Part shown: one piece after another, positions 5,062-59,918 of the stretch | How the letters are laid out: every line of letters starts with the position of its first letter | Numbering within the stretch: the first letter of the stretch is position 1 | Assembly: GCA_018645325.1 (NCBI GenBank) | Contig: JABGOU010000003.1 | Coordinates: 62,001-126,000, forward strand | DNA from: Desulfobacula sp. | GTDB taxonomy: Bacteria > Desulfobacterota > Desulfobacteria > Desulfobacterales > Desulfobacteraceae | Reading direction: 5' to 3' | Length of the DNA stretch: 64,000 nt | Translations under genes and position numbers: made by a program | Notes under the pieces: model-generated | What the model was told of the DNA's origin: nothing | Databases searched by the model: none | What the model saw: only the letters and a program-made list of their open reading frames with translations

Positions 5062-5982
5062 ATGGAAAAAAAAAAGCGATATTCAGACTATAATACCTAT
5101 TTAAGACAGTTGTTTGGTCAAAGGGTTCAGAAAATTTCAATTGATGCAGGCCTGTCGTGCCCAAACAGGGATGGATCGCTTTCCTATGAAGGGTGTATTT
5201 ATTGTAATTTAAAAGGGTCTGGTTCAGGAATGTTTGCCAGAGGGGTTTCAATAAAAGAGCAGATTGAAAAAGGCAAAATTGGAATGATAAAAAAATATAA
5301 GGCTAAAAAATTTCTGGCCTATTTCCAATCCTATACCAATACCTACACAAGTTACGATCATATGCGCCAAATGTTTAATGAAGTTTTCTCCTGTGAAGAC
5401 GTGGTGGGAATGGCTATTGGAACAAGGCCGGACTGCATTGATGAGCAAAAGCTTGACCTTATTGCCTCATATGCAAAATCATATCTGGTCTGGCTTGAAT
5501 ATGGTCTTCAGTCTGCCCATGATATAACCTTGAAAAAAATTAATAGGGGCCACGGGGTTAAGGATTTTTTAAAAGCAGTCAAGCTTACCTCCAAAAGGGG
5601 GATCAATATTTGTGCCCATGTCATCCTGGGTCTTCCGGGTGAAGACAGAGAGATGATGCTTAAAACAGCCAAAATACTGGCTGACAGCCGGATTAACGGG
5701 GTGAAAATTCATCTGCTCTATGTGATAAAGGATACCTTTCTTGACAGGATGTGGAAAAACGGTGATTATTTTCCCATGGAGCAAAAGGAATATGTGGATA
5801 TGGTGTGCGACTTTTTAGAACTTTTGCCCAAACGAATTATTATCCAGCGGATTACAGGAGATCCTCATTCTGATGAACTTAGAGCCCCCATGTGGGCAGG
5901 CCGATACAGGGAAACCTTTAACATGATACAGACGACCCTTGAAAACAGGGACACTTTTCAAGGCAGAAAATATAAAAAATAA
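5062..5982 (+). CDS. yhcC: TIGR01212-family radical SAM protein (YhcC-like)
   Basis: 306 residues. The cysteine pattern CPNRDGSLSYEGCIYC (C33, C45, C48) is the extended CX11CX2C cluster motif of the YhcC/TIGR01212 group of radical SAM proteins. The frame continues through the family segments AYFQSYTNTY, GTRPDCI, LEYGLQSAHD and HVILGLPGED. The chemical role of the family is not established; it is presumed to use a 4Fe-4S cluster and SAM in the cytosol. Its TAA stop (5980-5982) lies within the left target duplication of a MITE that inserted two bases further on, so the protein is intact. Confidence 0.88.
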   Translation: MEKKKRYSDYNTYLRQLFGQRVQKISIDAGLSCPNRDGSLSYEGCIYCNLKGSGSGMFARGVSIKEQIEKGKIGMIKKYKAKKFLAYFQSYTNTYTSYDHMRQMFNEVFSCEDVVGMAIGTRPDCIDEQKLDLIASYAKSYLVWLEYGLQSAHDITLKKINRGHGVKDFLKAVKLTSKRGINICAHVILGLPGEDREMMLKTAKILADSRINGVKIHLLYVIKDTFLDRMWKNGDYFPMEQKEYVDMVCDFLELLPKRIIIQRITGDPHSDELRAPMWAGRYRETFNMIQTTLENRDTFQGRKYKK

Positions 5983-5984
5983 TC

Positions 5985-6120
5985 ATAATTGTTCAGCCCG
6001 TTAAAAATAGTTATCCTAAAAAGCCCTGTCTGATGGATATTTGCAGGAGGTTAAGCGTTTAGCATCGAAACAAATATCCATCAGACAGGGCGGTTTAAGG
6101 CGTAAGAGCTGAATAATTAT
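5985..6120 (+). mobile_element. MITE copy 1 (IS66-like ends), with 8-bp target duplication
   Basis: 136-bp non-coding element. The ends are ATAATTGTTCAGC and its near-complement GCTGAATAATTAT. Just inside lies a perfect 21-bp inverted repeat (6023-6043 with 6071-6091) around a 27-base loop. The direct repeat AAATAATC flanks it exactly (5977-5984 and 6121-6128). Further copies are at 54167-54300 (inverted) and 59735-59869. IS66-family elements have ends beginning GTAA and make 8-bp duplications, so an IS66 transposase is the likely mobiliser (inference). The long hairpin could also terminate yhcC transcription. Confidence 0.85.
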
Positions 6121-6300
6121 AAATAATCATTGCATTTTTTCATATTTATAGTAAAGCTTGATGGAATCAAGTGCTCTGTTTTTTTCTTGTCAGATCCATG
6201 TAACTGACAGGACGGAGTTATGTTTCCTCCAAGATCTTTATTTTTTTTTGCCCGGCCCTCCGGCTGCTTATAAAAAAAACCTTCCAAAGAGATAAATCAA

Positions 6301-8103
6301 ATGAAAAAAACAAAACTTATTATCCTGTCATTAGGTCTGCTTGTGCTCGTTGGAATAGTCTTGATTTCCTATGCACAATTTAAAAAGGAGACTCTGAAAA
6401 ATTACGAGCAGATAAAAGAAAGCGGTAAAAGCCTCATCGGAATGTTGAGTCTGCCTTCTACAAAAATCCTTTTTTTAGAATCAAAGAATAGTTTCTTTCG
6501 GGAACTTTCCCAAAATGCATTGAATAATAAGATTGCCTATTGCGTTATACATGATGGTGAACAAAAGCCTGTCCTTTCATTTTCACCGGAAAAAATCGCC
6601 ATGCAGGTGCCGGATAATATTATAAACAAATCTTTGCTGGAATCAGGCTTTATCATGCAGGAGTTTTCGACCGCGGCAGGCTTTGATGTCATAGAATTTG
6701 CCAAACCCGTGTTCAAAGGCGGAAAAATAGATGCTGTTGTAAGGCTTGGGCTTAAAGTGCCGACCAATATTTTTTTTACATATGCAAATCTTGTCCTCCC
6801 TTTCCAGATTATCTTTTTTATCCTGCTGGCGCTGGTATTTGGATATTATTGGACAATCCTTACATTTAAGAACCTTAAAAATATTGAAGTGGCAGATAGA
6901 GGGATAAAGTTTGACAAAAGCGGCAAAGGCGATGTTAAAGATATTATAGAAAATCTGGAAGCGTATCTGGCCAGTGTAAAGGAAAAGACAAGTGTGGCTG
7001 AATCCAAACGTCAGAAACTTGAATCCCGTCTGAAAATCAGCCAGTTTGAAAACAAACAGTTTTTCAATATTTTTGATGCCTTTGATTTTGGTATTCTTCT
7101 CATTGACAACAGGGATATGGTTTTCTTTGTCAATACCTATCTTCTGGATCTTTTAGGGCAAACTAAGGAAGATCTTATCAATTTTTCATATGATGAGGTT
7201 ATCGAGCACGAAGGACTAAAAACCTTTATTTTGCAGCGCAGTTCAGCCGAGGGGCGAGATGCTTCGGGTCATATGGATATGATTTTTGATAAAACCGAGC
7301 CTGATCAGTCATATCAGACCTCTTCCTCCAATATAACAGATGCCCAGGGATCATTGTTTATCAGGCTGATAAAGGTGGTGAATATTTCCAGAGAAAAGGA
7401 AAATGAAAAACTGCAGCAGGATTTTATCAGTCATATTGCCCACGAATTGAGAACCCCTTTGACCAATATCAAGGCCTATAATGAAATGATGATGGATGGT
7501 GAAATCGACAATGTTGAAATGCAGAAGGAATTTTTCAATACCATTAATGATGAGACAAATCGTCTGGCCAAACTTATTTCAAGTATTCTGGAGCTTGCTG
7601 AAACGGAAATGGGTCAACTTACAGTTAAAAAAGATATGGTCAAGACGGACTGGCTCATGGAAGGATGTATTGAAGCTGTGGAAGCTGTGGCCAAAGAAAA
7701 GAACATTACCATTGAAAGAAAGGTTCCGGACAACTTTCCTAAAATAATGGGGGATAAGGAAATGCTCAAATCCGCCCTGATTAATATATTGGGAAATGCA
7801 GTGAAATATTCGCCTGAATCTGCCGGGATTATGTTTTCCATAAAAGAAGTCGATGACATGGTGGTATTTGAGATCAATGATACAGGATTTGGTATGGACG
7901 AAAAGGATTTGCCTCATATTTTTGAAAAATTTTACCGGTCTGAAAATGAGGATGTAGTTGAGCAGGATGGCAGTGGTTTAGGCCTTGCCATTACGGCTGA
8001 GATAATAAAAACCCATGATGGTTTTATTGAAGTCCAAAGTGAGCTTGACAAAGGTAGCCAGTTCACGATAAAAATACCAAAAGGAGATTTACTCATTGGA
8101 TAA
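6301..8103 (+). CDS. Membrane sensor histidine kinase with PAS-like domain
   Basis: 600 residues. One N-terminal membrane helix (about 7-28) and a second (about 155-180) bracket a periplasmic sensor region. A short HAMP-like/coiled segment and a PAS-like domain (about 250-360) follow. The dimerisation helix carries the phosphorylated histidine H381 in HELRTP. The ATPase domain (about 475-600) contains N-box ILGNAVKYSP, G1 DTGFGMD and G2 GSGLGLAI. The stop codon overlaps the start of the response regulator gene by 8 bases, so the pair is translationally coupled. It leads the long run that contains the secretion operon. The ligand is unknown. Confidence 0.92.
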   Translation: MKKTKLIILSLGLLVLVGIVLISYAQFKKETLKNYEQIKESGKSLIGMLSLPSTKILFLESKNSFFRELSQNALNNKIAYCVIHDGEQKPVLSFSPEKIAMQVPDNIINKSLLESGFIMQEFSTAAGFDVIEFAKPVFKGGKIDAVVRLGLKVPTNIFFTYANLVLPFQIIFFILLALVFGYYWTILTFKNLKNIEVADRGIKFDKSGKGDVKDIIENLEAYLASVKEKTSVAESKRQKLESRLKISQFENKQFFNIFDAFDFGILLIDNRDMVFFVNTYLLDLLGQTKEDLINFSYDEVIEHEGLKTFILQRSSAEGRDASGHMDMIFDKTEPDQSYQTSSSNITDAQGSLFIRLIKVVNISREKENEKLQQDFISHIAHELRTPLTNIKAYNEMMMDGEIDNVEMQKEFFNTINDETNRLAKLISSILELAETEMGQLTVKKDMVKTDWLMEGCIEAVEAVAKEKNITIERKVPDNFPKIMGDKEMLKSALINILGNAVKYSPESAGIMFSIKEVDDMVVFEINDTGFGMDEKDLPHIFEKFYRSENEDVVEQDGSGLGLAITAEIIKTHDGFIEVQSELDKGSQFTIKIPKGDLLIG

Positions 8104-8479
8104 GAAAAAAACCATTCTCATTATTGACGATGATATCCATATTCGGCGGATACTGGAAATTAAGATCAAGCATAACGGATATAATACCATTACCGCAAAG
8201 AACGGAAAACAGGGACTCTCAATAATCCATGAACAAAAGCCCGATGCCGTGATTTCCGATTTAAACATGCCAAGGCTTGATGGCGAGGCACTTTGCAAGC
8301 TAACCAATCCTATAAAAAAAGATCGTCCTTTTTTAACCATAATCATTACTGCCCGGATCAATCCCAGTGAACAGGAATGGATCAATGAGATGCAGGATAC
8401 CATGTTTATGGAAAAACCATTCAGTCCTTCAAAGATTATAGAGTCCCTTGCCAGGTATTTTGAAAATATAACCTCCTGA
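8096..8479 (+). CDS. Single-domain response regulator
   Basis: 127 residues, a lone receiver domain without an output domain. The acidic pocket is D11-D13, the phosphorylated aspartate is D55 (SDLNMPRLDG), and the conserved lysine is in EKPFSP near residue 106. The start is a TTG inside the kinase gene with AAAGGAGA upstream. It probably takes phosphate from the kinase encoded just before and passes the signal by protein contact, CheY-like. The HD-GYP protein next door is a plausible target (inference from order). Confidence 0.9.
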   Translation: MDKKKTILIIDDDIHIRRILEIKIKHNGYNTITAKNGKQGLSIIHEQKPDAVISDLNMPRLDGEALCKLTNPIKKDRPFLTIIITARINPSEQEWINEMQDTMFMEKPFSPSKIIESLARYFENITS

Positions 8480-8515
8480 AAGTTAGGACACCAGGATTTT
8501 TTTGGATTATTTTTT

Positions 8516-10000
8516 ATGAAATCAACCGGTTTTGAAGATATATTTCACGGATTTTCAGAAATATCACCTCTTAAGTTTGAGATGTGGGATGAAAAAGGTG
8601 TTATAGGCTCCTTTGATCATGCAGATCTTAACGGGGTAAGACAATTATTACCTGGAATGGCTGCCCGTGTTTATGCGGCTGAAGAATTTCTGCATGAGGA
8701 AAACCAGGCATCTGCTGTGTTGTTTGGCATTCCCTTGTTTGACGAGGACACAATTGAAGGTGTTCTTCTTGCCTATCTTTTCAAAGGTCGGACAAGCGCC
8801 AATGAAAATAGTCCTGGCCCCGGAGATGTAAAAGTTCTTATGACAAAGATTGCAGACCTGATCGAAGAAAGATGGGAAATGAAAAAGGAATCTGATACAT
8901 TGATCAACGAGCTTGATCAAAATTATGAATCCCTTCATCTGTACTCAAATGTGGCAACCAAGATAAAAACCCTTAATTTTTCAAGCCAGATGATCCTCCA
9001 TCTGCTGAATGAAATTAAAGACAATATCAGAATGGATATGGCATTCTCCATCATGCCTGATCGGCCGGACTACTCTGAAATTGTCTGCAAACAGAATATT
9101 ACCATAAAAGATAAGCAGGGATTTGTAACTTCACTGCTTAAAACGGTTGAAATAAACAATAAAGACCTTGATGAAGGATATTATATTGTAAACAATTCAG
9201 CTGACAGCAAATTATTTTCACCCATGCATAAAGAACCCTTTCGGTTTCTTGCTGTAAAGATCTTGAATAACGACATCTTTTATGGGTGGCTTGGCATTTT
9301 TTCCTTTGATATGGACGAAATTATTAAGCGCAGTGAACTTCGCCTTTTGATGTCCATTGCAGAACAGATCGGTGTTGTTATTGCCAATACAGACCTGTAC
9401 CATGATCTTGAAGATTTTGGTATCAATATCGTAAAATCACTTATCGTAACCATTGAAGCCAAGGACGTTTATACGGGTGGTCACTCTGAACGTGTACACC
9501 ATCTGAGTATGCTCATAGCAGAAGAGTTAGGGCTTAGCGAGAAAGATAAAAAAGTTTTAAACTGGTCTGCCCTGCTGCATGATGTGGGTAAAATAGGCAT
9601 CCCGGAAGCCATACTAAACAAGCCTGCAAAACTGGACAACAAAGAATATAATTCCATTAAAGGTCACCCTGTAAAAGGAGCTGAAATCATAACACCTCTT
9701 GACTATCTTGCAGATTCTATTCCAGGGATTTTCCATCATCATGAGGCCTATGACGGCTCAGGATATCCTACAGGTCTCAAAGGCGAAGAAATCCCTTTGT
9801 TTTCAAGGATTATTTCCGTGGCAGACACTTTTGACGCCATTACATCTGACCGTGCCTATCGAAAGGGTGCCTCCTTTGAAAAGGGGCTTGCAATCATAAA
9901 TGAAGTCTCGGGAACCCAGCTGGACCCGAACATGGTTAAGGTTTTTAACAGTGTTTACGAAAAAGCCAAAACAATACTTTTTAACGAGGACTTAAAATAA
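8516..10000 (+). CDS. GAF-like/HD-GYP cyclic di-GMP phosphodiesterase
   Basis: 494 residues. The N-terminal half (about 1-110) looks like a small-ligand sensor module, and a GAF-like domain spans about 150-295. The C-terminal HD-GYP domain (about 310-480) has the full metal and catalytic set: the HD pair at about residues 355-356 (LLHDVGKIGIPE) and HHHEAYDGSGYP at about 406-417. This family hydrolyses cyclic di-GMP, so an active enzyme is expected. It ends one base before the STAS gene and sits upstream of a secretion ATPase with a remnant MshEN (cyclic di-GMP-binding) domain, which suggests local signalling to that machine. Confidence 0.92.
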   Translation: MKSTGFEDIFHGFSEISPLKFEMWDEKGVIGSFDHADLNGVRQLLPGMAARVYAAEEFLHEENQASAVLFGIPLFDEDTIEGVLLAYLFKGRTSANENSPGPGDVKVLMTKIADLIEERWEMKKESDTLINELDQNYESLHLYSNVATKIKTLNFSSQMILHLLNEIKDNIRMDMAFSIMPDRPDYSEIVCKQNITIKDKQGFVTSLLKTVEINNKDLDEGYYIVNNSADSKLFSPMHKEPFRFLAVKILNNDIFYGWLGIFSFDMDEIIKRSELRLLMSIAEQIGVVIANTDLYHDLEDFGINIVKSLIVTIEAKDVYTGGHSERVHHLSMLIAEELGLSEKDKKVLNWSALLHDVGKIGIPEAILNKPAKLDNKEYNSIKGHPVKGAEIITPLDYLADSIPGIFHHHEAYDGSGYPTGLKGEEIPLFSRIISVADTFDAITSDRAYRKGASFEKGLAIINEVSGTQLDPNMVKVFNSVYEKAKTILFNEDLK

Positions 10001-10001
10001 T

Positions 10002-10346
10002 ATGGAGCCAAGTGTTTCCATTAAAGATATTACCATTAAAAATATTAATGGTAAAACAGTTCTCGGTCCTGTTACCTCCCTGACACATAAAAATTGTGAG
10101 CAGCTGGAGCGGTTTTTTAAGAATCTTTTGACCAAGGGGGTTGTGGATATTGTAATTGACATGAAATCCGTGCCCCTGCTTGACAGCTGTGCACTTGAAC
10201 TTCTGGTGGAAATGAAGAATCAGTTGAAAAAAAAGGGCAGTGACCTGATTATTTCGGATATGAATGATGTGTGCACAGATATACTGGTGTGCGTTAAACT
10301 GATCAACGAGTTCAAAATTATCTCAACAAAAAAATCAAGGCTATGA
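10002..10346 (+). CDS. STAS-domain protein (anti-sigma factor antagonist-like)
   Basis: 114 residues. The single STAS fold shows VDIVIDMKSVPLLDSCALELL, where the serine after the conserved aspartate (DS in PLLDSC) is the usual phosphorylation position of SpoIIAA-like antagonists. No kinase or phosphatase partner is encoded next to it. It starts one base after the HD-GYP stop. Its TGA overlaps the first ATG of the gspE frame (ATGA at 10343-10346), so translation of the secretion ATPase is coupled to it. Confidence 0.85.
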   Translation: MEPSVSIKDITIKNINGKTVLGPVTSLTHKNCEQLERFFKNLLTKGVVDIVIDMKSVPLLDSCALELLVEMKNQLKKKGSDLIISDMNDVCTDILVCVKLINEFKIISTKKSRL

Positions 10347-10510
10347 GCCCTAAAAATATGCCAAAAAGAATCATGCTTGGGGAAATTTTAGTTCGAAAAA
10401 AAAAATTAACCCCGGAAAAGCTTTTTGAACTTCTTGAGGTTCAATCCCAGACAGCCCAGAGTCTGGGTACCTTCTTATCAAGCAGAAGATCATTACAGAA
10501 GAGGAATTAA
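10343..10510 (+). pseudogene. gspE: N-terminal fragment of GspE (MshEN half-domain), cut off by a frameshift
   Basis: The ATG overlapping the STAS stop opens 55 codons that read as the start of a GspE/PilB/MshE ATPase (MLGEILVRKKKLTPEKLFEL, then AQSLGTF) and then run out of frame to TAA at 10508-10510. From 10474 the next frame continues the same domain (LIKQKIITEEELNHALSEQL). One missing base near 10471-10476 (TTC then CTT read as TTCTT) explains the break. There is no long homopolymer at the site and no classical slippery heptamer. It may be a real deletion or a sequencing error. Confidence 0.8.
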
Positions 10511-10563
10511 ACCATGCCTTAAGCGAACAGCTGGGCATTTCCCATATATCCCTGAGAAAAGGA

Positions 10564-12051
10564 ATGGTTGATCCGGCAATCGTTGATATCCTTCCAAAGG
10601 AAAAGGCCATCCAGATGAATGTGATCCCAATGTTCCGGGTGAACAATGTTCTGACGGTTGCCACAAGCGATCCCCATGATTTTTTCAAGCAGGATAAAAT
10701 TGCCGAGATAACAAAGTTTCATATCCAGCAGGTTTCCTGTACCCGCAGTGATATCAATAAAGCCATTGAAGAATGTTATCAGGGGCAGATCAGTATTGAT
10801 GACGTCATCTCCAGCGTTGACGAAGGCGACCTTTCCTTTGTTGAAGAATCTTCCGAGGCCACGGTTAGTGAAATTGCAAAAATGGCCGAGGGAAGCCCCG
10901 TTGTAAATTTGACCAACCTGATCCTTCTCAAGGCAATTCGTAAAGAATCAAGCGATATTCACATAGAACCCCAGCAGGACAATTTCATGGTCAGGGCCAG
11001 GGTGGACGGCATCCTCTATGAACTGATGACCCATGGAATGGAACGGCATTCCGCTGTTGTGTCAAGGCTCAAGGTCATGGCAAACCTGGATATTTCAGAG
11101 AGGCGAATGCCCCAGGACGGCAGAATCCAGGTCACGGTAGACGGCAGGCTTATTGATTTAAGGTTTTCATCCTTGCCTGGCTATTACGGCGAAAAAGTGG
11201 TCCTGAGAATCCTGGACCGGAGTAAATCAGTACTGGATATAAACAGGCTGGGGTTTGCCCCCCCTTTGCTGACCCTTTTCAAGGAACTGCTTAGAAGGCC
11301 CTATGGCCTGATTATTGTCTGCGGTCCAACGGGAAGCGGTAAGACAACCACACTTTATGCTGCTGTAAACCTTCTTAATACCATTGAAAAAAATATAGTT
11401 GCCATTGAGGATCCCGTTGAATACCAGATCCACGGCATCACCCAGGTCCCGGTGAAAGCAGCCATAGGCCTTACCTTTGCCAGAATTTTAAGGCATGTCC
11501 TTAGACAGGACCCGGATATCGTCCTTGTGGGAGAGATCCGGGACAGAGAAACTGCAAAAATTGCCATTGAAGCATCATTGACAGGCCGTCTTGTTCTTTC
11601 CACCCTGCACACAAATGACAGCCCGAGCACGATCACGCGGCTGCTTGAAATGGGGATTGAGCCCTACCTGATTTCATCCTCCCTGCTTGCATCCATTGGA
11701 CAGCGACTGGCACGGGCCATCTGTCCGAACTGTCAAACAGATTTTTATCCGCCAAAGCAAGTTATAAAAGAACTGGGATTTGATAAAGAGAAAAATCTTA
11801 AACTGATTCATGGACGGGGGTGTACTTCATGTTTTGACTCAGGGTTCAAGGGTCGCCTGGGTATCCACGAAATGCTGGTCAATGAACCAGGCCTTCAAAA
11901 ACTCATCCTGAATAATCCAACCATTGACAAATTAAAGGAATACCTTGAAAAAAAAGACTTTAAAACCATGCAGCAGGATGGTTATAAAAAAGTTCTTGAG
12001 GGATTAACCACCATTGAAGAAGTTCAGATGCTGACCGTGGGAGAAGAGTAA
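10564..12051 (+). CDS. gspE: Type II secretion/type IV pilus assembly ATPase GspE
   Basis: 495 residues from the first ATG in frame; without the upstream frameshift the protein would be about 569. It is the cytosolic hexameric motor that drives pseudopilus assembly. The N1/N2 region is followed by Walker A GPTGSGKT (about residue 254), the Asp box, and Walker B ILVGEIRDRETA-type residues (VLVGEIRD). A four-cysteine zinc site follows (CPNC at about 389, CTSC at about 420). The frame is open upstream to 10474 and encodes the second half of an MshEN domain, but has no good start there. AAAGGA lies too close to the 10564 ATG to be ideal. The next gene, gspF, begins 6 bases after the stop. Confidence 0.9.
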   Translation: MVDPAIVDILPKEKAIQMNVIPMFRVNNVLTVATSDPHDFFKQDKIAEITKFHIQQVSCTRSDINKAIEECYQGQISIDDVISSVDEGDLSFVEESSEATVSEIAKMAEGSPVVNLTNLILLKAIRKESSDIHIEPQQDNFMVRARVDGILYELMTHGMERHSAVVSRLKVMANLDISERRMPQDGRIQVTVDGRLIDLRFSSLPGYYGEKVVLRILDRSKSVLDINRLGFAPPLLTLFKELLRRPYGLIIVCGPTGSGKTTTLYAAVNLLNTIEKNIVAIEDPVEYQIHGITQVPVKAAIGLTFARILRHVLRQDPDIVLVGEIRDRETAKIAIEASLTGRLVLSTLHTNDSPSTITRLLEMGIEPYLISSSLLASIGQRLARAICPNCQTDFYPPKQVIKELGFDKEKNLKLIHGRGCTSCFDSGFKGRLGIHEMLVNEPGLQKLILNNPTIDKLKEYLEKKDFKTMQQDGYKKVLEGLTTIEEVQMLTVGEE

Positions 12052-12057
12052 AGGCTT

Positions 12058-19570: not shown

Positions 19571-21955
19571 GTGATGCCTGACAATCAAAAAGGCTTTCTG
19601 CTCATCAGTGTCATTTTCATAATGCTGCTTTTGGCGGTCAGCATATTTTCCATTAATTATTATTCTGTCACCCAGGTTCGGATGGCAGGAAACCAGACTT
19701 CTTCCATCCAGACAAGCTATGATCTTAAAGCCATTGTTGAACAATCGGTGTGGAAACTTACACAAAATCCTTTCTGGCGCACCATTGAAACCGGGGAAGA
19801 TTACACGTTTAACGGCACAACTTACACTCGCATTGTCCGCAATGCAGACACAGCTCCTTTCAACTATCCTACCAGTTTTGACGATGCCGTCACTGTCCAG
19901 GTGACGCCTAAAGGCTCGTCCCAATCCTTTGAAAGATCTTTTCGATATTATGCTTCAGAATTTGTGGGTATTGATGTTGACCTGAATGATCCCCAGGGTA
20001 TTTTTAAGGATTCTTCAGGGAATCTTTATATCGCAAATACAAATAATCATACCATTTTAAAGGTGGATACCTACGGGGTGGTTACCACCATTGCCGGTAC
20101 AGGCAGTGCAGGAGATACGGGGGATGGGGGACTTGCCACATCAGCAAGATTAGACCAGCCCCGGGGTGTTTTTAAGGATAATTCCGGTGATATTTATATA
20201 GCAGATACAAAGAATCATAAAATCCGGCGGATCGATATGTTTGGAGACATTTCAACCGTGGCCGGTACAGGAGACTCCGGTTCTTCCGGGGACGGGGGAG
20301 CCGCAATATCAGCGAGACTTGCTGAGCCCAAGGCAATTATTAAAGACAGTTCAGGCAATCTGTATATATCAGATACCAATAATGATAAAATCCGGAAAGT
20401 GAATACTTCAGGAGTCATTTCAACCTTTGCCGGCACGGGAAGCGCAGGTTCCTCCGGTGACGGGGGGGCAGCAACTTCAGCAATGCTGAACACTCCCCGG
20501 GGTATTTATATGGATTCTTCCGGTAATCTGTATATAGCAGACAAGGGCAATGATAAAATCAGGAAGGTTGATACATCTGGAGATATTTCAACGATAGCCG
20601 GCACGGGAAGCTCAGGTTCTTCCGGAGATGGGGGAGCTGCCACGGCTGCTCAGCTTGACGAACCCAAGGGTGTATTTAAGGATACAACAGGCAATCTGTA
20701 CATCGCAGATTCAAATAATTCCAAAATCAGGAAGGTGGATACATCCGGGGATATTTCAACCATAGCCGGCACGGGAAGCTCAGGTTTTTCCGGGGACGGG
20801 AGCCTTGCCACATCTGCCCAAATAAACAAACCCCAGGCTGTTCTGATGGATACAACAGGCGAGCTGTACATTGCAGATACCAATAATTCCAAGATCAGGA
20901 AGGTGGATACATCCGGTTATATATTGACATTTGTGAGTAGTTCAGGAGCAGGAGATGAAGGAGATGGCGGGCTTGCCACCCTTGCCCAGCTCAATCATCC
21001 GGCCGGGATATTCAAAGATTCTTCAGGACTTTATATCGCCGATACAAATAATCATAAGATCAGGAAGGTGGATCCCTCAGGAATTATCACAACTATAGCC
21101 GGTACTGGTAGTTCCGGCTGGACCGGGGATGGAGGCGCGGCCACTTCAGCAACGCTTGACAGCCCCAGGAATATGGTTAAAAGTGCATCGTCCGGAAATC
21201 TTTATATTGCAGACACAAAAAATCATGCAATTAGGAAGGTGGATACCTCCGGGAATATTTCAACCTTTGCCGGCAAGGGAGATGCTGGTTATGCCGGGGA
21301 AGGTGGGCCTGCCACCAATGCAAAGATGAACGAACCCAGTGGTGTTTTAGTCAGTGGTGCATATCTTTATATAGCTGATACAAAAAATCATGTAATCCGG
21401 AGAGTAGCTTATTCAGCCGGGTTGTGGCGTATCTGGACGTATGCCGGAACGGGAAGTTCCGGTTCAACAGGAGATGGAGGGTTGGCTACGTTGGCAAAGC
21501 TTAACGAACCCTGGGCTATTGCTCAGGATACGTCTGGTAACCTTTATATTGCCGATAAGAATAATCACAAAATCAGGAAGATAAATACATCTGGAATCAT
21601 TTCAACATTTGCCGGCACGGGCAGTTCCGGATATTCCGGGGACGGCGGTCTTGCTACCCTTGCCCAATTAAAAAATCCCGTGGATGTTTTTGCAGATAGC
21701 AGCAACAATATTTTTATCGTGGAACTGGACGGTAGAAGAATCCGGGTGGTTAATGCAGGTGATAACAAGATTTCTACCCTTGCCGGGACAGGCGCCTCCG
21801 GGTATAACAAAGATCTTCCGGCTGTGGAAACTCTATTAAACGATCCGGAAGGCATTGCCATGGAATCTGCTTATGGTGCAACCCGGATCTTTGTCAGCGA
21901 TACAAATAACCACAAAATTAAGGTTCTGACACTTAAGACGGTTTACGGGTTTTAG
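19571..21955 (+). CDS. Pseudopilin-like (GspK/PilX-type) protein fused to twelve NHL repeats
   Basis: 794 residues (GTG 19571 or the ATG three bases on). The first 35 residues are GspK/PilX-like: QKG followed by a long hydrophobic helix (FLLISVIFIMLLLAVSIFSI). A small globular region extends to about 130. From about residue 135 to the end are twelve repeats of about 57 residues, with landmarks P-x-G-V/I-F-K-D, LYIADT-NN-KIRKVD and IAGTGSSG-GDGG. These are NHL propeller blades, enough for two six-bladed propellers. Several repeats are almost identical in DNA. The start lies 11 bases after the secretin stop, so it belongs to the operon. A tip adhesin or ligand-binding head is the natural inference; the position-5 Glu of pilins is not present, as in GspK. 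Confidence 0.8.
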   Translation: MMPDNQKGFLLISVIFIMLLLAVSIFSINYYSVTQVRMAGNQTSSIQTSYDLKAIVEQSVWKLTQNPFWRTIETGEDYTFNGTTYTRIVRNADTAPFNYPTSFDDAVTVQVTPKGSSQSFERSFRYYASEFVGIDVDLNDPQGIFKDSSGNLYIANTNNHTILKVDTYGVVTTIAGTGSAGDTGDGGLATSARLDQPRGVFKDNSGDIYIADTKNHKIRRIDMFGDISTVAGTGDSGSSGDGGAAISARLAEPKAIIKDSSGNLYISDTNNDKIRKVNTSGVISTFAGTGSAGSSGDGGAATSAMLNTPRGIYMDSSGNLYIADKGNDKIRKVDTSGDISTIAGTGSSGSSGDGGAATAAQLDEPKGVFKDTTGNLYIADSNNSKIRKVDTSGDISTIAGTGSSGFSGDGSLATSAQINKPQAVLMDTTGELYIADTNNSKIRKVDTSGYILTFVSSSGAGDEGDGGLATLAQLNHPAGIFKDSSGLYIADTNNHKIRKVDPSGIITTIAGTGSSGWTGDGGAATSATLDSPRNMVKSASSGNLYIADTKNHAIRKVDTSGNISTFAGKGDAGYAGEGGPATNAKMNEPSGVLVSGAYLYIADTKNHVIRRVAYSAGLWRIWTYAGTGSSGSTGDGGLATLAKLNEPWAIAQDTSGNLYIADKNNHKIRKINTSGIISTFAGTGSSGYSGDGGLATLAQLKNPVDVFADSSNNIFIVELDGRRIRVVNAGDNKISTLAGTGASGYNKDLPAVETLLNDPEGIAMESAYGATRIFVSDTNNHKIKVLTLKTVYGF

Positions 21956-27430: not shown

Positions 27431-27492
27431 GGGGTCAGGCTTGCGTAGTTGCGTTTATTGTTCAATAAACGCAACTACGAAAGCCTGACCCC
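27431..27492. repeat. GGGGTCAGGC-capped palindrome, copy A
   Basis: 62 bases. The outer arms GGGGTCAGGCTT / AAGCCTGACCCC are shared with copies at 31277 and 60777. The inner arms (GCGTAGTTGCGTTTATTG and its complement, one mismatch) are specific to this copy. Partial GGGCTCGGGGTCA repeats precede it (27394-27432). It resembles REP-type elements linked to Y1 (REP-associated) transposases. It lies just downstream of the acetoacetyl-CoA synthetase stop. Confidence 0.75.
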
Positions 27493-27509
27493 ATTTGTTT
27501 CACATTTAT

Positions 27510-31251: not shown

Positions 31252-31276
31252 TTGTTTTCTCCTTTTTATCTCCTAT

Positions 31277-31336
31277 GGGGTCAGGCTTGCGTTGTTGCGT
31301 TATTATTCAATAACGCAACAACGCAAGCCTGACCCC
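31277..31336. repeat. GGGGTCAGGC-capped palindrome, copy B
   Basis: 60 bases with a perfect 28-bp stem: outer GGGGTCAGGCTT as in copies A and C, inner GCGTTGTTGCGTTATT specific to this copy. It lies between the carboxyltransferase stop and the lyase-like start within the operon, so it could reduce downstream transcription or act as a processing or stability hairpin. Confidence 0.78.
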
Positions 31337-31345
31337 AATTATTTA

Positions 31346-52187: not shown

Positions 52188-53414
52188 ATGTCTAAAGTGA
52201 AAACAAAATTGCTTATTGGCCTTGAGGATCGATTTGGAGCAAAAAATTACAATCCTCTGGATGTAATACTCAGCAGGGGAGAGGGAATCTGGGTATGGGA
52301 TGTGGAAGGGAAAAAATATATGGATTGTCTGTCCGCATACTCAGCAGTTAACCAAGGGCATTGTCATCCAAAAATCCGCCAGGTGCTTATAGATCAGTCA
52401 AAGAAGCTGACTCTGACATCCCGAGCATTCAGGAACGACCAACTTGGGCTCTTTTATAAGTATTTATGTGAACTGACACACTCGCATAAAGTACTTCCGA
52501 TGAACAGTGGTGCTGAAGCCGTTGAAACAGCCATAAAAACAGTTCGTAAGTGGGGTTACGAAAGCAAAGGAATACCATTGGATAAGGCTGAAATTATTGT
52601 CTGTGATAATAATTTCCATGGCAGGACTCTTACAATTATCAGTTTTAGTTCAGATAAAAATGCCAGAAATAATTTCGGTCCTTTTACACCTGGATTTAAA
52701 TCCATCCCATTTGGAGATGCAGACGCCCTTGAAAATGCAATTACCAAAAATACTGTGGCCTTTATGGTAGAACCAATACAGGGAGAAGCAGGTGTTATCA
52801 TACCACCTGATGGATATCTAAAAAAAGTAAGGGAAATATGCACAAAAAATAAAGTTGTATTTATATTGGATGAAATTCAAACAGGTCTTGGAAGAACAGG
52901 TAAGTTATTAGCAGAAGAGCATGAAGGAATCCAGTCTGATCTTACATTGATTGGCAAAGCGCTTTCAGGAGGATTCTATCCAGTATCTGCAGTTCTTTCA
53001 AATGAAGCAGTTTTAGGCGTTTTGAATCCAGGCCAGCACGGAAGTACCTTTGGTGGGAATCCTTTGGCTTGCGCTATTGCAAGAAAAGCGTTGCAGGTAC
53101 TGATAAAAGAAGAGATGATTGAAAATTCGGCCAAAATGGGTGAATACTTTCTTTCTGAATTAAATAAGGTCCATTCTCCAGTAATAAAAGAGATCCGTGG
53201 CAAAGGTCTTATGATTGCAATTGAGCTAAAAAGGGAATCACGGATTTCAGCCAGGCAAATTTGTAAAAAATTATTAGGAAAAGGTATTTTATGCAAAGAA
53301 ACACATTTGTATACGATTCGTTTTGCGCCGCCCTTGGTAATTAAGAAATCCGAAATTGATTTAGCTGTTGGAAAAATTCGAGAAGCTTTAATAGATCAAA
53401 ATTTGATGTGTTAA
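52188..53414 (+). CDS. rocD: Ornithine--oxo-acid aminotransferase
   Basis: 408 residues, PLP fold-type I, class III aminotransferase. The opening [20 protein letters not shown] and [18 protein letters not shown], the phosphate-binding NSGAEAVE, and the PLP lysine in [15 protein letters not shown] are characteristic of RocD. It turns ornithine and 2-oxoglutarate into glutamate semialdehyde and glutamate. Placed after an amino-acid transporter and near an opine dehydrogenase, it likely handles imported ornithine or ornithine released from an opine. AAAAGGA precedes the ATG. Confidence 0.92.
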
Positions 53415-53499
53415 AATCAATTAAGCGAACGTCTTTATATATAATAGATTCATTAGCTTTCTGGACTTAAAAAGAACTGTTTTTGAAACAATATAAGGA

Positions 53500-54027
53500 T
53501 TAAATCAATAATTTAGAAAAGATATGATCTTCTTGAATATCAGATCCCAAAGCAAAGGTGGTTGAGCCGGCAATCTCAAATTTCATTTTGCTGTAGAATG
53601 CATTTCCTCTGGTATTTTTTTTCCAGCTGCTCAACCAGATGGATTTAAATGCATTGTTACAGGCATGTTCTATGCATTTTTCAATGAGAGATAGGCCAAT
53701 GCCGCAGCCCCAATATTGCTGCAGAGAATAGAGCCTGGACAGCTCAATTGCAGGTAATGGTCTAACACATTCAGGTGTCGGGCCATGGCAAAGTTTTGCA
53801 TACCCGACCCATTTTTCTTCTAACTTTGCAATATAGAAGAAAGATTCTCTGTCAGAAATTTCTGATTTAATTTTATTCTCTGTAAAGGATTCTCCCACAT
53901 ATTTTTCAAAATCCTGTTTTTTATTTAATTTGGCAAATGCTTCTCTGAATGTTTTCTCAGCCAATTTTGACAGAGAGCAGGCATCTGAAATTTTTGCTGC
54001 GTGTAAAACGGGTTTTTCAAATTTCAT
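53500..54027 (-). CDS. GNAT-family N-acetyltransferase (PaiA-like)
   Basis: 175 residues. The acetyl-CoA fold is visible: VGYAKLCHGPTPE, then ELSRLYSLQQYWGCGIGLSL (the Q/R-x-x-G-x-G/A equivalent is QQYWGCGIG) and WLSSWKKNTRGNAFYSKMKF near the end. The layout is that of the PaiA spermidine/spermine acetyltransferase group. Substrate unproven; a polyamine would fit the ornithine-handling neighbour but that is inference. Confidence 0.82.
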   Translation of the reverse strand: MKFEKPVLHAAKISDACSLSKLAEKTFREAFAKLNKKQDFEKYVGESFTENKIKSEISDRESFFYIAKLEEKWVGYAKLCHGPTPECVRPLPAIELSRLYSLQQYWGCGIGLSLIEKCIEHACNNAFKSIWLSSWKKNTRGNAFYSKMKFEIAGSTTFALGSDIQEDHIFSKLLI

Positions 54028-54166
54028 TATAACCTCTATTATCTCTGATCTATTTACAGTGACCCATACTAAAAAGAAAAGTTTTTGTCTATGTCAATGA
54101 TTAAGCTCCCACTCAGCTGATTTCTATAGAGAGCTAATTTTTTTTTAAATCCAACTTAAAATAAAA

Positions 54167-54300
54167 GTAATTATTCAGCTCTTAGGCTTGAACCCGCCCT
54201 GTCTGATAGATATTTGTTTCGATGCTAAACGCTTAACCTCCTGCAAATATCCATCAGACAGGGCTTTGGTGATATTTTTTTTAACGGGCTGAACAATTAC
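54167..54300 (-). mobile_element. MITE copy 2 (inverted orientation), with 8-bp target duplication
   Basis: 134-bp element. The ends are GTAATTATTCAGC and GCTGAACAATTAC. The internal inverted repeat around GATGCTAAACGCTTAACC is that of copies 1 and 3, read on the other strand. The direct repeat AAATAAAA flanks it (54159-54166 and 54301-54308). It lies between the divergent GNAT and tetR genes. Confidence 0.85.
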
Positions 54301-54413
54301 AAATAAAACAATAATGATCCGGTTGATCCGGCTTAAGTATTATCCTGGAAAAAACTAGTTGACTATCCTGTATATTTTCTTGACAAGTGATTGAATAAAT
54401 GTAAAAAAAACCA

Positions 54414-54431
54414 TGACTGAGCGCTCGTTCA
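54414..54431. promoter_or_regulatory. TetR-type operator upstream of the tetR gene
   Basis: TGACTGAGCGCTCGTTCA, centred on GAGCGCTC. Its reverse complement matches the site upstream of the acyl-CoA dehydrogenase operon (35022-35041) at 16 of 18 bases. Position about 45 bases before the tetR start fits autoregulation. Confidence 0.75.
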
Positions 54432-54475
54432 AATTTCATTAGAAACAACCTTGTTACAGGGAAGGAAGCGATCAT

Positions 54476-55126
54476 TTGGGAAGAATTAAAAAATCCGGAA
54501 ACGAAATATCGGCAGTAGAAGTCCCGACACAAATAAAAAATCCTGAACTGGTTAGGGAGAGACGGCGCCAGATTATCGATTCCACTGTTAAGCTTTTTAT
54601 TGAACACGGATATCACAAGACAACGACACGGATGATCGCAAAGGCATCTAACTTTTCAATTGGTTCTTTATATGAGTATGTAAGCTCTAAAGAGGACCTG
54701 CTATACCTTGTATGCAAAACTATTCATGAGGAAGTTCAGGATGCAGTTGAAAAGGCCTTGTCAAATACGGATAAGGAAAAAGAAAGACTTGCATCTGCTG
54801 TCAGGCAGTATTTTTATGTTTGCGATAAGCTGGGAGATCATATCCTTCTCATGTATCAGGTGACGCAATTTCTGCCGGAAAAATGGAAAGAGGATGTCCT
54901 TGTGAATGAGTTGAATATTACAGATATTTTTATAAATGCTTTGTCTTCTTTATCCGGGAAGAATAAATTTCCAAAGCTTGATGACAAAACAATAAATCTT
55001 GTGGGCCACAATATCTCTGTTCTGGGTCAGATGTGGGCTTTTCGAAGATGGCATGTTCAAAGAAATTTCACCATTGAGGAATATATTAGAATTCAAACCA
55101 ACTTTATCCTTGGATTGATATTTTAA
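54476..55126 (+). CDS. TetR/AcrR-family transcriptional regulator
   Basis: 216 residues from a TTG with GGAAGGAAG upstream. The DNA-binding part (about 25-75) reads RRRQIIDSTVKLFIEHGYHK, TTTRMIAKASNFSIGSLYEYVSSKEDLLYL. The C-terminal ligand part (about 80-210) is helical, of a type found in acyl-CoA-sensing regulators. It precedes icmF by 70 bases. The palindrome upstream recurs at the acyl-CoA dehydrogenase operon, so it is probably a repressor of acyl-CoA catabolism that responds to an acyl-CoA. Confidence 0.9.
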   Translation: MGRIKKSGNEISAVEVPTQIKNPELVRERRRQIIDSTVKLFIEHGYHKTTTRMIAKASNFSIGSLYEYVSSKEDLLYLVCKTIHEEVQDAVEKALSNTDKEKERLASAVRQYFYVCDKLGDHILLMYQVTQFLPEKWKEDVLVNELNITDIFINALSSLSGKNKFPKLDDKTINLVGHNISVLGQMWAFRRWHVQRNFTIEEYIRIQTNFILGLIF

Positions 55127-55235
55127 TATAATGAAAAATTTTTATTTTATAAAACTTTATGTAAATTAAATAATAAATTATAAGTATTTTTTAAGTTTGA
55201 CCAAACTCCCGAAGACTTTTTTAAAAGGAGAAATG

Positions 55236-58200
55236 ATGAGTATGGAAACCCAAAGTTATACCCCTGATAATTCTATTAAAATTGTTACTGCAACATCTCT
55301 TTTTGACGGGCATGATGCAGCCATAAATATAATGAGAAGAATTTTGCAGGATTCCGGTGCTGAAGTGATCCATATCGGTCATAACAGGTCTGCAAAGGAA
55401 GTTGTGGATGCAGCCATTGAAGAAGATGCCCAGGGCATTGCCGTGTCCAGTTATCAGGGTGGGCACATTGAATATTTTAAGTATATGGTGGATCTTTTAA
55501 AAGAAAAAGGCGCATCGCATATTAAAATTTTCGGTGGCGGGGGCGGTGTGATCATTCCTCTGGAAATGGATGAGCTGCATGCCTATGGAGTGACAAGGAT
55601 TTATTCTCCTGAAGATGGTTCAAAAATGGGGCTTCAGGGCATGATCAATGACATGATGCAATCCATGGATGTTCCTTGTGTTGATTATAAAAACCTTAAT
55701 TATGACAATCTTACCATTGGCAATAAATATGTGACGGCAAATTTTATTTCTGCAGTCCAGGAAGCCAAGGCCAATGACCTGGAAACATTTAAAAAAATAA
55801 TTTTAAATATTAATAAGCTTGCAGATAAAAAAGATATACCAGTCATAGGATTAACGGGGACGGGGGGGGCAGGCAAGTCCTCTTTAACGGATGAACTGGT
55901 TATCAGGATTTTAAGGGATCTTAAAGACATCAATATTGCCATTATCTCTTGTGATCCTTCCAGACGGAAAACCGGCGGTGCTCTTTTAGGGGACAGGATC
56001 AGGATGAATTCCATTGAAACAGGCCGGGTTTATATGAGGTCCCTTGCAACCAGACGTTCCCAGACAGAGCTTCCAGAGGCGTTACCAGATGCCATAAGCG
56101 TGGTCAAGGCAGCAGGTTATGATATGGTGATTGTTGAAACAGCAGGTATAGGCCAGGGCGATTCAAGGGTGGTGGATCTTGTGGATATGTCCATCTATGT
56201 GATGACTGCGGAATTTGGTGCTCCTTCCCAGTTGGAAAAGATAGACATGCTGGATTATGCGGATATAGTTGTAGTGAATAAATATGAGAAAAAAGGCAGT
56301 GAAGATGCCATAAGGGATGTCAGAAAACAGGTCCAGAGAAATCGCAAGGCATGGGATATGGATCCAAAGGAATTGCCCGTATATGGAACCATTGCCTCAA
56401 AATTTAATGATGATGGGATAACTGCTTTTTATCACGGGCTTTTAGACCTTATTTTTGAAAAGAAAAATATTAAATTTGAATCCACTATTGAAAGGACAGG
56501 CATAAAAGAATCTTCTTCAAAGACTATTATCATCCCGGGAGAGAGAACCCGATACCTTGCCGAGATCGCCGATTCAATCAGGCAATACCATGTAACGACA
56601 AAAGATCAGGCAAAAGCCGTGCGGAATCGATGGCATTTAATTGAGGCTTTAAAAACATTGGAAAACAGGGGTTTTGATCAATTACCCGAGGCTCTTGAAA
56701 AGTTTAAGGAGGCTGTTTCCGATGCAATGTCTTTTGTTGAGGATGAAACAGATAAGACCATAAATGAATTCAATACCTGCAAAGCCATGTTTGAAAAAGA
56801 TGAACTGGTGTATTATGTCAGGGGTAAGGAATTGAAAGTCCCCTTATACAGTAAATCTTTGTCCCATTCTAAAATATCTAAAATATCTCTCCCCCAGTTC
56901 ATAGATCCGGCCCATCAGTATTCATGGATGAGAAAAGAAAATTTTGCTGGAAATTTTCCCTTCACAGCCGGGGTGTTCCCTTTAAAGAGGGCAGATGAAG
57001 ATCCTACACGGATGTTTGCAGGAGAGGGCGGCCCCAAAGATACCAATAAGCGGTTCAAGCTTTTGTCACAAAGTTATCCTGCCAAACGATTGTCCACAGC
57101 TTTTGATTCAGTTACCCTTTACGGATTTGATCCAGATACCCGTCCGGATATCTACGGCAAGATAGGAACTTCTGGTGTGAGCATATGTACTTTAGATGAT
57201 GTAAAAGTTCTTTATGGCGGGTTTGATCTCTGTGCTCCAAATACTTCTGTATCAATGACCATTAACGGCCCTGCTCCCATGATGCTGGCCATGTTTATGA
57301 ATACTGCCATTGACCAGCAGATGAAAATTTTTAAAGAGAAGAATGACCGGGAACCGTCTAAAGAAGAAAAGGAATCAATCAAACAGTTTGCCCTTTCAAA
57401 TGTGAGGGGAACTGTTCAGGCAGACATTTTAAAAGAAGACCAGGGACAGAATACCTGTATTTTTTCAATTGAGTTTGCCCTGAGAATGATGGGTGACATC
57501 CAGCAGTATTTTATAGATCATAAGGTCCAAAATTTTTATTCTGTTTCCATTTCAGGGTATCATATTGCAGAAGCCGGTGCCAATCCCATTACCCAGCTTG
57601 CCTTAACCCTGGCAAACGGGTTTACTTATGTGGAGTATTATCTTTCCCGGGGTATGGATATCGACACCTTTGCTCCCTCACTTTCCTTTTTCTTTTCCAA
57701 TGGAATGGACCCTGAATATACAGTGATCGGAAGAGTGGCAAGACGAATCTGGGCCGTGGCCATGAAATATAAATACAAGGGAAATGAAAAATCCCAGAAG
57801 CTTAAATATCATATCCAGACTTCGGGAAGATCTCTGCACAGCCAGGATATTCAGTTTAATGACATCAGAACAACTCTCCAGGGACTGTGCGCTATTTATG
57901 ATAATTGTAACAGTCTTCATACCAATGCTTTTGATGAAGCCATAACAACACCTTCTGCAGAATCGGTGCGGCGGGCTTTGGCAATCCAGTTGATTGTAAA
58001 TAGGGAATGGGGTCTGGCCAAGAATGAAAATCCTATGCAGGGAAGTTTTATTGTTGATGAACTAACCGATCTTGTGGAGGAAGCAGTCCTGGTTGAATTT
58101 GAAAGAATTACGGAAAGAGGAGGTGTCCTTGGCGCAATGGAAACAGGTTACCAGAGAGGCAAGATCCAGGAAGAATCCATTTACTATGAACAATTGAAAC

Positions 58201-58511
58201 ATTCAGGCAAACATCCCATTGTCGGTGTGAATACCTTTGAAGACCCAGATGCGGATTATGCGGAAATGGCAAACCATCTGGAGCTTGCAAGGGCGACGGA
58301 TGATCAGAAAGATGCCCAGCTTGAAAGATTGAACATATTTAAGCAAAAAAATACAGATAAATCCGGCCAGGCAATTGAAAAATTGAAAAAGGCTGCATTA
58401 AATGATGAAAATATGTTTGAAAGATTAATGGATACTGTAAAGGTTTGCAGTTTGGGAACCATTACCCATTCACTGTATGAGGTAGGCGGAAAATACAGAC
58501 GAAACATGTAA
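55236..58511 (+). CDS. icmF: Fused isobutyryl-CoA mutase IcmF
   Basis: 1,091 residues from the ATG at 55236 (AAAGGAG five bases upstream; the longer TTG frame has no ribosome site). Three parts occur in the IcmF order. A B12-binding domain comes first (about 12-140, DGHDAA for the cobalt-ligand His, SSYQGGH, GGGG). A MeaB-type GTPase follows (about 195-420, GLTGTGGAGKSSL). The mutase barrel is last (about 545-1,090). The substrate-site segment FPFTAGVFPLKR, with Phe where methylmalonyl-CoA mutase has Tyr, and QTSGRSLHSQDI mark isobutyryl-CoA/n-butyryl-CoA specificity. Known IcmF enzymes also interconvert pivalyl-CoA and isovaleryl-CoA slowly. Thiolase and dehydrogenase genes follow. Confidence 0.93.
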   Translation: MSMETQSYTPDNSIKIVTATSLFDGHDAAINIMRRILQDSGAEVIHIGHNRSAKEVVDAAIEEDAQGIAVSSYQGGHIEYFKYMVDLLKEKGASHIKIFGGGGGVIIPLEMDELHAYGVTRIYSPEDGSKMGLQGMINDMMQSMDVPCVDYKNLNYDNLTIGNKYVTANFISAVQEAKANDLETFKKIILNINKLADKKDIPVIGLTGTGGAGKSSLTDELVIRILRDLKDINIAIISCDPSRRKTGGALLGDRIRMNSIETGRVYMRSLATRRSQTELPEALPDAISVVKAAGYDMVIVETAGIGQGDSRVVDLVDMSIYVMTAEFGAPSQLEKIDMLDYADIVVVNKYEKKGSEDAIRDVRKQVQRNRKAWDMDPKELPVYGTIASKFNDDGITAFYHGLLDLIFEKKNIKFESTIERTGIKESSSKTIIIPGERTRYLAEIADSIRQYHVTTKDQAKAVRNRWHLIEALKTLENRGFDQLPEALEKFKEAVSDAMSFVEDETDKTINEFNTCKAMFEKDELVYYVRGKELKVPLYSKSLSHSKISKISLPQFIDPAHQYSWMRKENFAGNFPFTAGVFPLKRADEDPTRMFAGEGGPKDTNKRFKLLSQSYPAKRLSTAFDSVTLYGFDPDTRPDIYGKIGTSGVSICTLDDVKVLYGGFDLCAPNTSVSMTINGPAPMMLAMFMNTAIDQQMKIFKEKNDREPSKEEKESIKQFALSNVRGTVQADILKEDQGQNTCIFSIEFALRMMGDIQQYFIDHKVQNFYSVSISGYHIAEAGANPITQLALTLANGFTYVEYYLSRGMDIDTFAPSLSFFFSNGMDPEYTVIGRVARRIWAVAMKYKYKGNEKSQKLKYHIQTSGRSLHSQDIQFNDIRTTLQGLCAIYDNCNSLHTNAFDEAITTPSAESVRRALAIQLIVNREWGLAKNENPMQGSFIVDELTDLVEEAVLVEFERITERGGVLGAMETGYQRGKIQEESIYYEQLKHSGKHPIVGVNTFEDPDADYAEMANHLELARATDDQKDAQLERLNIFKQKNTDKSGQAIEKLKKAALNDENMFERLMDTVKVCSLGTITHSLYEVGGKYRRNM

Positions 58512-58530
58512 AATATAAGGAGATATATAT

Positions 58531-59706
58531 ATGAATAAAGCAGTTATAGTGAGTGCCACGCGGACGGCTCTGGGGAGTTTTGGCGGAAGCTTAAGTAAAA
58601 TTGGTGCAACTAACCTTGGAGCCCATGTGATAAGAGAGGCTATAACAAGGGCGGGCATTGATGATAAAGAAGTAAATGAGTGTATCATGGGCATGGTTCT
58701 GCCATGCGGATATGGCCAGAATCCAGGAAAACTTGCCGCTGTTAAGGCGGGTCTGCCCTGGGAAGTTGAATCCATTACAATAAATAAAGTCTGCGGATCA
58801 TCATTAAAAGCCGTGATGCTTGCGGCCCAGGCTATCCAGTGCGGAGATGCCGATGTAGTGGTTGCAGGCGGCATGGAAAATATGAGCATGGCACCATATT
58901 ATATGGATAAGGCCCGCTGGGGTCTTCGCATGGGGCCGGGGAAAATTGAGGATCACATGGTCCATGACGGTTTATGGGATGTGATAAATGATTTTCACAT
59001 GGGTATTTCCAATGAGCTTTCCAGTGAAAAATGGGATGTATCAAGACAGGTTCAAGATGAGTTTGCAGCCGGGTCTTATAAAAGAGCCAATGCATCAATT
59101 GCCAAAGGAAGGTTTAAAGATGAAATCGTGCCTGTAAAAATTCCACAGCGAAAAGGCGATCCAATAATTTTTGATACGGATGAATGCTGCAAAGAGACAA
59201 GTCTTGAACTTCTTTCAAAGATGAGACCGGCCTTTAAAAAAGATGGTGTGGGAACTGCCGGTAATGCTTCCATTATCAGTGACGGCGCCTCAGCTTTAGT
59301 TGTCATGAGTGAAAATAAAGCAAAGGAGTTAGGGTGTGAAATCATGGCCACAATCGGTTCCCAGTGTTCCTATGGCATTGATATGAAATATGTTTTAATG
59401 GCCCCGATTTTTGCCATTCCCAAGGTGTTGAAAAAGCAGGGACTGTCTATCTCAGATATTGATCTGTTTGAAATCAATGAAGCATTTGCAGGCAGCTCAG
59501 CAGGCATTAACAAGGTGCTTGATTTAGATCCGGAACGAGTAAATGTTAATGGCGGCAGTGTTGCACTGGGTCATCCAATAGGTGCAAGCGGGGCCAGGGT
59601 TTTGACCACATTATTATATGAAATGAAAAAGCGTGATGTGAATACAGGCCTTGCCTCTCTTTGTCTGGGAGGTGGAGAGGCTGTGGCCCTTGTCGTCAAT
59701 CGGTGA
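58531..59706 (+). CDS. Acetyl-CoA acetyltransferase (thiolase)
   Basis: 391 residues, typical for biosynthetic-type thiolase. The nucleophile is Cys in NKVCGSSLKAV (about residue 89). The His of NEAFA and GHPIGASGARV and the second Cys of SLCLGGGEAVAL complete the site. It cleaves acetoacetyl-CoA to two acetyl-CoA, or the reverse. It starts 19 bases after icmF with AAGGAGA upstream. MITE copy 3 separates it from the hydroxybutyryl-CoA dehydrogenase gene. Confidence 0.94.
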   Translation: MNKAVIVSATRTALGSFGGSLSKIGATNLGAHVIREAITRAGIDDKEVNECIMGMVLPCGYGQNPGKLAAVKAGLPWEVESITINKVCGSSLKAVMLAAQAIQCGDADVVVAGGMENMSMAPYYMDKARWGLRMGPGKIEDHMVHDGLWDVINDFHMGISNELSSEKWDVSRQVQDEFAAGSYKRANASIAKGRFKDEIVPVKIPQRKGDPIIFDTDECCKETSLELLSKMRPAFKKDGVGTAGNASIISDGASALVVMSENKAKELGCEIMATIGSQCSYGIDMKYVLMAPIFAIPKVLKKQGLSISDIDLFEINEAFAGSSAGINKVLDLDPERVNVNGGSVALGHPIGASGARVLTTLLYEMKKRDVNTGLASLCLGGGEAVALVVNR

Positions 59707-59734
59707 TGGTAATAATAAATATACAAGACAATTT

Positions 59735-59869
59735 GTAATTGTTCAGCCCGTTAAAAAAAGCTATCCCCAAAGCCCTGTCTGATGGATATTTGCAGGAGGT
59801 TAAGCGTTTAGCATCGAAACAAATATCTATCAAACAGGGCGGTTTCAAGTGTAAGAGCTGAATAATTAC
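59735..59869 (+). mobile_element. MITE copy 3, with 8-bp target duplication
   Basis: 135-bp element with ends GTAATTGTTCAGC and GCTGAATAATTAC, flanked by the direct repeat GACAATTT (59727-59734 and 59870-59877). The internal arms differ from copy 1 at two bases on the right side. It is inserted between the thiolase and 3-hydroxybutyryl-CoA dehydrogenase genes, where the hairpin may cut readthrough. Confidence 0.87.
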
Positions 59870-59918
59870 GACAATTTTTATAAATAAAAAAACGTAAAAA
59901 AAATATTGAGGAGAGATA

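Follow-up and report, generated by a model that had tools for sequence, protein, structure and literature searches.

Not all MITEs derive from an IS by internal deletion. In the available text of its report, MITEAba12 of Acinetobacter is 111-114 bp long, is mobilised by the co-resident ISAba12, to which it was assigned by its ends and duplication length, produces 9-bp duplications and is present at 1-22 copies per genome (PMC6382973). MITECca01 of Cardinium is about 240 bp long, its 169 copies are mostly intergenic, and its parent, IS982, is intact in the same genome, as described in the part of the source at hand (PMC9769881). Chunjie, from Geobacter uraniireducens, measures 178-235 bp and comprises 38 copies with conserved ends and 57 partial ones, intergenic and carrying terminal and direct repeats, according to the available portion of a review that also presents ERIC as palindromic, non-coding and high in copy number (PMC10969869). 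The name IS66 has 0 occurrences in the text of that review. For the IS66 family, the accessible portion of one source gives an 8-bp target duplication and ends that begin GTAAGCG (PMC11946415), and that of another describes a multi-ORF structure as typical (PMC3281130). Open-licence literature, available to us in part and searched with the end sequence as well, yielded no IS66-linked MITE, and the portions at hand of PMC3189936, PMC6382973, PMC10969869, PMC3281130, PMC9769881 and PMC2246112 mention none.

Here we describe a well-documented candidate for an IS66-linked MITE from Desulfobacula sp. It is present in about 100 or more copies with two subfamilies of loop; its target preference was measured, and a sister species carries a candidate autonomous partner. 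We conclude that it is a real and well-defined high-copy MITE of a familiar kind, most likely mobilised by IS66.

MITE copies within the window

The window, the whole 64,000-nucleotide stretch that was analysed (G000:C81:62001-126000), belongs to an assembly of 4.39 Mb in 157 contigs that is rated 90% complete. It contains MITE copy 1 at 5985-6120 (136 bp, + strand), copy 2 at 54167-54300 (134 bp, - strand, opposite in orientation to the other two) and copy 3 at 59735-59869 (135 bp, + strand). Direct reading and a script both returned the coordinates and ends given in the initial annotation. The 13-bp ends agree among the copies, except that copy 1 has A...T instead of G...C as its two outermost bases.

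Each copy is flanked by an 8-bp target duplication. Copy 1 lies between two copies of AAATAATC (5977-5984, read directly and by script, and 6121-6128), copy 2 between two of AAATAAAA (54159-54166 and 54301-54308) and copy 3 between two of GACAATTT (59727-59734 and 59870-59877). As had been claimed, these duplications are perfect and mutually different. Chance similarity or common ancestry of the three loci is already refuted by the target duplications, and its probability is negligible: flanks and duplications differ at every site, which bears out the claim of insertion rather than shared ancestry. Copy 3 is flanked by ORFs for a thiolase (58531-59706) and a 3-hydroxyacyl-CoA dehydrogenase (59919-60770). 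The element is absent from the corresponding spacer in six sister genomes, which also speaks against common ancestry, although divergence of these spacers hides the precise empty site. The left duplication of copy 1 covers the final 6 bases of ORF 5062-5982, so this copy is at the extreme end of a gene and not clear of the ORF.

The initial annotation had also described a long internal palindrome. Folding confirmed a long hairpin in each of the three copies (four folds, z-scores of -6.0 to -9.2), with arms at about 6017-6043 and 6071-6097 in copy 1. A search of the window against Rfam gave no family at the gathering score, and a tRNA search of the window gave no tRNA.

The window contains other repeats. 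A second palindromic family, GGGGTCAGGCTT...AAGCCTGACCCC, which we take to resemble REP-type repeats, has three copies (27431-27497, 31276-31341 and 60777-60835); in some sister genomes, similar palindromes occupy the MITE's place between the thiolase and dehydrogenase genes. Repeats at 168-bp spacing occupy 19912-21688 within a 794-aa ORF (19571-21955), and their units look NHL-like. Three tandem 30-bp units lie at 604-693 within ORF 305-781.

A high-copy family in the genome

The family had been described as having three copies, a figure far too low for the genome, where there are about 100 or more. The exact end GTAATTRTTCAGC occurs 198 times in the assembly (105 forward, 93 reverse), compared with 0 and 0 for a reversed-pattern control, and the hairpin core CCTGTCTGATGGATATTTGCAGGAGG occurs 143 times at up to 3 mismatches. 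We analysed 106 complete copies, namely those in the fetched stretches, which cover part of the 143 cores; 14 additional loop matches in these stretches are not in a complete element.

The copies are uniform in size. A length of 133-138 bp is found in 101 of the 106, with 48 at exactly 135 bp, and the five outliers measure 67, 95, 114, 130 and 141 bp. The element is thus a short (<300 bp), non-coding MITE with no room for a transposase, in agreement with the initial annotation. Median divergence from the consensus is 5.9% and a single pair among the 106 copies is identical, so the copies do not stem from one very recent burst. The loop comes in two types, GTTTAGC in 46 of 106 copies and GAATAGCCTC in 43 (exact matches).

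Some loci have an unusual structure. Two outward-facing ends of broken MITE copies lie 1766 bp apart at G000:C35:16186-17951 (L062:6186-7951), and the ORF between them looks LarA-like by eye. We considered a composite transposon at this position and rejected it, as the outer flanks have no match. At G000:C67:8985-9051 (L063:486-552), a 67-bp copy has both ends and a duplication with one mismatch and is missing the whole hairpin.

Target sites

Target duplications are a general property of the family. Among the 106 copies, the two 8-bp repeats show no mismatch in 66, one in 23, two in 9 and at least three in 8, and the tally was unchanged when ends were picked on the terminal repeat alone. When flanks were paired after shuffling, a mean of 0.95 pairs were perfect and 3.4 had at most one mismatch. 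Other copies lacking 8-bp repeats were named beforehand as a refuting result, which came out only in part: in 17 of 106 the repeats differ at two or more positions, a state that age or rearrangement would produce, and 66 of 106 remain perfect.

The AT-richness reported for the three original targets extends to the family. The duplications are 11% GC; the flanks at 9-60 bp have a median of 31%, and the window has 41%. Among the 89 copies whose repeats differ at no more than one position, duplication positions 1 and 2 are most often A (58 and 60 copies) and positions 7 and 8 most often T (68 and 64 copies). The statement that all targets are intergenic holds as a strong bias but not without exception, given that copy 1 touches an ORF end. 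Outside any ORF of at least 100 aa we found 97 of the 106 copies, compared with 97 of 500 random window positions, and inside such an ORF 9 of 106 (with the flanks joined), compared with 403 of 500, a crude comparison in which flank lengths differ somewhat between copies and random positions.

Hairpin conservation

Across the 106 copies, mean conservation is 0.97 and 0.94 in the 13-bp terminal inverted repeats, 0.96 and 0.94 in the hairpin arms, 0.91 and 0.89 in the spacers and 0.90 in the loop. These values bear on the idea that the hairpin is kept by the host as an ERIC-like transcribed element affecting mRNA ends or stability, its transposition being past. The slightly higher conservation of the arms than of the spacers is in line with this idea, as are arm pairing slightly above shuffles (2088, compared with a shuffle maximum of 2076) and a location nearer to gene ends than to gene starts (median 19.5 and 112.5 bp). 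However, the ends are conserved like the arms, and covariation in the arms is weak, with 6 compensating double changes against a shuffle mean of 2.2 and maximum of 7. Flanking-gene arrangements are evenly spread (27, 25, 22 and 20 of 94), with none favoured. Finally, one copy, of 67 bp, has lost the hairpin and keeps both ends. Retention by the host is very improbable in light of these data.

Distribution in relatives

The MITE has a narrow range. Of the 389 genomes sampled from the order, 3 contain its core, and all 3 belong to one genus: the core occurs 143 times in the Desulfobacula genome studied here (G000), 29 times in G014 and once in G011. Outside this sample, G021 carries 48 ends at up to one mismatch. 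The 19-letter end is present in 5 of 86 genomes of the family, and the single match in G100 is not the MITE. A complete 5.2-Mb genome (G007) is available for the genus.

Plasmid and phage records gave no match to the MITE. The 19-letter end pattern is matched by 33 stretches in viral contigs. Two of these flagged by a loose core scan were rejected, since in both the sequence past the end is not that of the MITE; in L332 the match is inside a long ORF of phage-like appearance.

Search for a mobiliser

The initial annotation proposed that an IS66 element with matching terminal repeats in the same genome would identify the mobiliser. No such element was found. The PF03050 profile gave two fragments in the 90%-complete assembly, both on contig C106, and the query P0001 had no match in this assembly, the C106 fragments included. 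MITE-like ends near these fragments (up to 3 mismatches) numbered 6, compared with 7.5 expected by chance. We therefore rejected the C106 fragments as a same-genome mobiliser. Between them, at L064:4248-7480, are three adjacent ORFs that look tyrosine-recombinase-like by eye. With no matching IS66 in its own genome, the present mobility of the MITE is unproven. The other carriers are similar: the MITE-rich G014 and G021 have weak transposase matches (28% and 30% identity), and a search of G011 gave no transposase.

Relatives provided the match. When 58 genomes (the MITE's own and relatives) were searched for the end, 22 had matches, in many cases a single chance-like one. The identical 13 bases also stand beside IS66-type transposase sequence in elements of the genus and the family. 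One of these, L109:757-2515 in G001, a sister species of the same genus, is a complete element of 1759 bp. Its ends, GTAATTATTCAGC and GTAACTATTCAGC, agree with those of the MITE at 13 of 13 positions on one side and 12 of 13 on the other, and its target duplication, TATAATTT, is 8 bp and AT-rich. The transposase is encoded by one long ORF (471 aa) and matches PF03050 (9.1e-47) and NF033517 (1.6e-86; 290.8 bits, compared with a cut-off of 180), making it a DDE_Tnp_IS66 transposase by profile and L109 a member of the IS66 family. Unlike the multi-ORF elements typical of the family, L109 has one ORF; single-ORF members of IS66 are a known subgroup. Scanning contigs with P0001 gave one locus, on the same contig as in G001, whose GenBank accession is JAQIBP010000075.1 (Deltaproteobacteria bacterium isolate GH13).

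Further copies or remnants ending in the identical 13 bases are present in G001, G004 and G029. G001 has 21 exact ends, and many of them are situated some 105-117 bases into a contig (L084 and L099, for example), a pattern that assembly breaks at a multi-copy IS would give. G001 has the IS and lacks the MITE.

These ends are not peculiar to L109. Relatives of the transposase, distant ones counted, are present in 115 of the 389 genomes sampled from the order. A GTAA...TTAC end pair with an 8-bp duplication was recovered at 11 of 49 loci, representing 9 distinct elements, all with perfect duplications; many of the 49 loci are cut, broken or distant, and other end types could not appear because the script was limited to GTAA...TTAC pairs with 8-bp duplications. 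In four elements of the same order whose transposases are 62-72% identical (L176, L177, L180 and L182), ends of the form GTAAC[T/C]ATTCAGC go together with perfect 8-bp duplications; these ends equal GTAACTATTCAGC except for one end of L180, which equals GTAACCATTCAGC. In the more distant L188, L189, L194 and L195 the ends are related yet different, and other IS66 elements of the genus end differently, for example in GTAAATATTCGG.

Some MITE copies from relatives carry the IS end itself: in L150 (G011) and in L158 and L169 (both G014), the right end is GTAACTATTCAGC. At base 7 the left end of the MITE departs from the IS end (G for A), which speaks against the link. The longest alignment of a MITE end with an IS end spans 15 bases, one of them mismatched, and involves a fragment in G020. 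Of the GTAAGCG start given for the family, both elements have GTAA and lack GCG (GTAATT in the MITE, GTAATT and GTAACT in L109), so the L109 subgroup departs from it just as the MITE does.

Beyond the ends, the MITE interior had no match below E 0.3 in 14 IS loci. The MITE therefore did not arise by simple deletion from the IS described above. Origin by internal deletion of an IS finds no support in these 14 loci, and the true parent may lie outside them.

Discussion

Because the MITE's ends match those of a complete IS66 element of a sister species, the MITE is most likely a hitch-hiker of an IS66 enzyme. Based on sequence comparison, we place the probability that it was moved by the transposase of a single-ORF IS66-family IS at roughly 85%. 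Such a transposase would recognise GTAAYTATTCAGC-type ends, cut the target with an 8-bp stagger and insert the element into about 100 or more AT-rich, mostly intergenic sites. We infer that in the MITE's own lineage the moving was done by a transposase of the L109 subgroup, which was later lost or is missing from the assembly. The hairpin could be a passenger, or it might aid the pairing of the two ends.

A transposase of another family, with similar ends and an 8-bp stagger, would account for the same structure. IS256, ISL3, IS1595 and ISAs1 give duplications of about 8 bp. The own genome is without an IS66 of the right subgroup, and IS66 alone was covered by the profile search, both of which leave room for such an enzyme. 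Nevertheless, the identical 13-bp end sits on IS66-family elements of the same genus, and to our knowledge the ends of the other 8-bp families do not begin GTAA. No other IS family turned up with such ends, IS66 being the one family for which a profile was searched, and we consider a mobiliser from another family improbable. The initial proposal of IS66-like ends thus gains support from the sister species, no partner having been found in the MITE's own genome.

We also considered that this is an orphan IS66-type MITE family whose partner transposase is gone and whose foreign hairpin core was kept by selection, either for faster transposition or for a role in transcripts. We regard this combination as unlikely. 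The MITE family itself accounts for more than 100 hairpins of this genome that might otherwise pass for RNA genes or terminators. A 135-bp substrate and a single-ORF transposase would also make a compact system in which to test IS66 transposition.

Among the known systems closest to the MITE is L109, with which it has in common a 13-bp end (12 of 13 bases at the other end), the 8-bp duplication described for the IS66 family and an AT-rich target. The two differ in that the IS is 1759 bp long with a 471-aa transposase, whereas the MITE is 135 bp long and non-coding, with an unrelated interior. Palindromic structure, the lack of coding sequence and high copy number are shared with ERIC, whose length and sequence are other than those of the MITE and for which we know of no autonomous partner. 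Like Chunjie, the MITE is multi-copy and intergenic with terminal and direct repeats; it differs from Chunjie in length, copy make-up and sequence. It resembles MITEAba12 in being small and in having a mobiliser assigned by ends and duplication length, in contrast to which MITEAba12 has 9-bp duplications, a co-resident IS and fewer copies. In its very high copy number and mostly intergenic location, the MITE resembles MITECca01, from which it is set apart by its shorter length and by its candidate partner, which resides in a sister species, whereas intact IS982 shares a genome with MITECca01.
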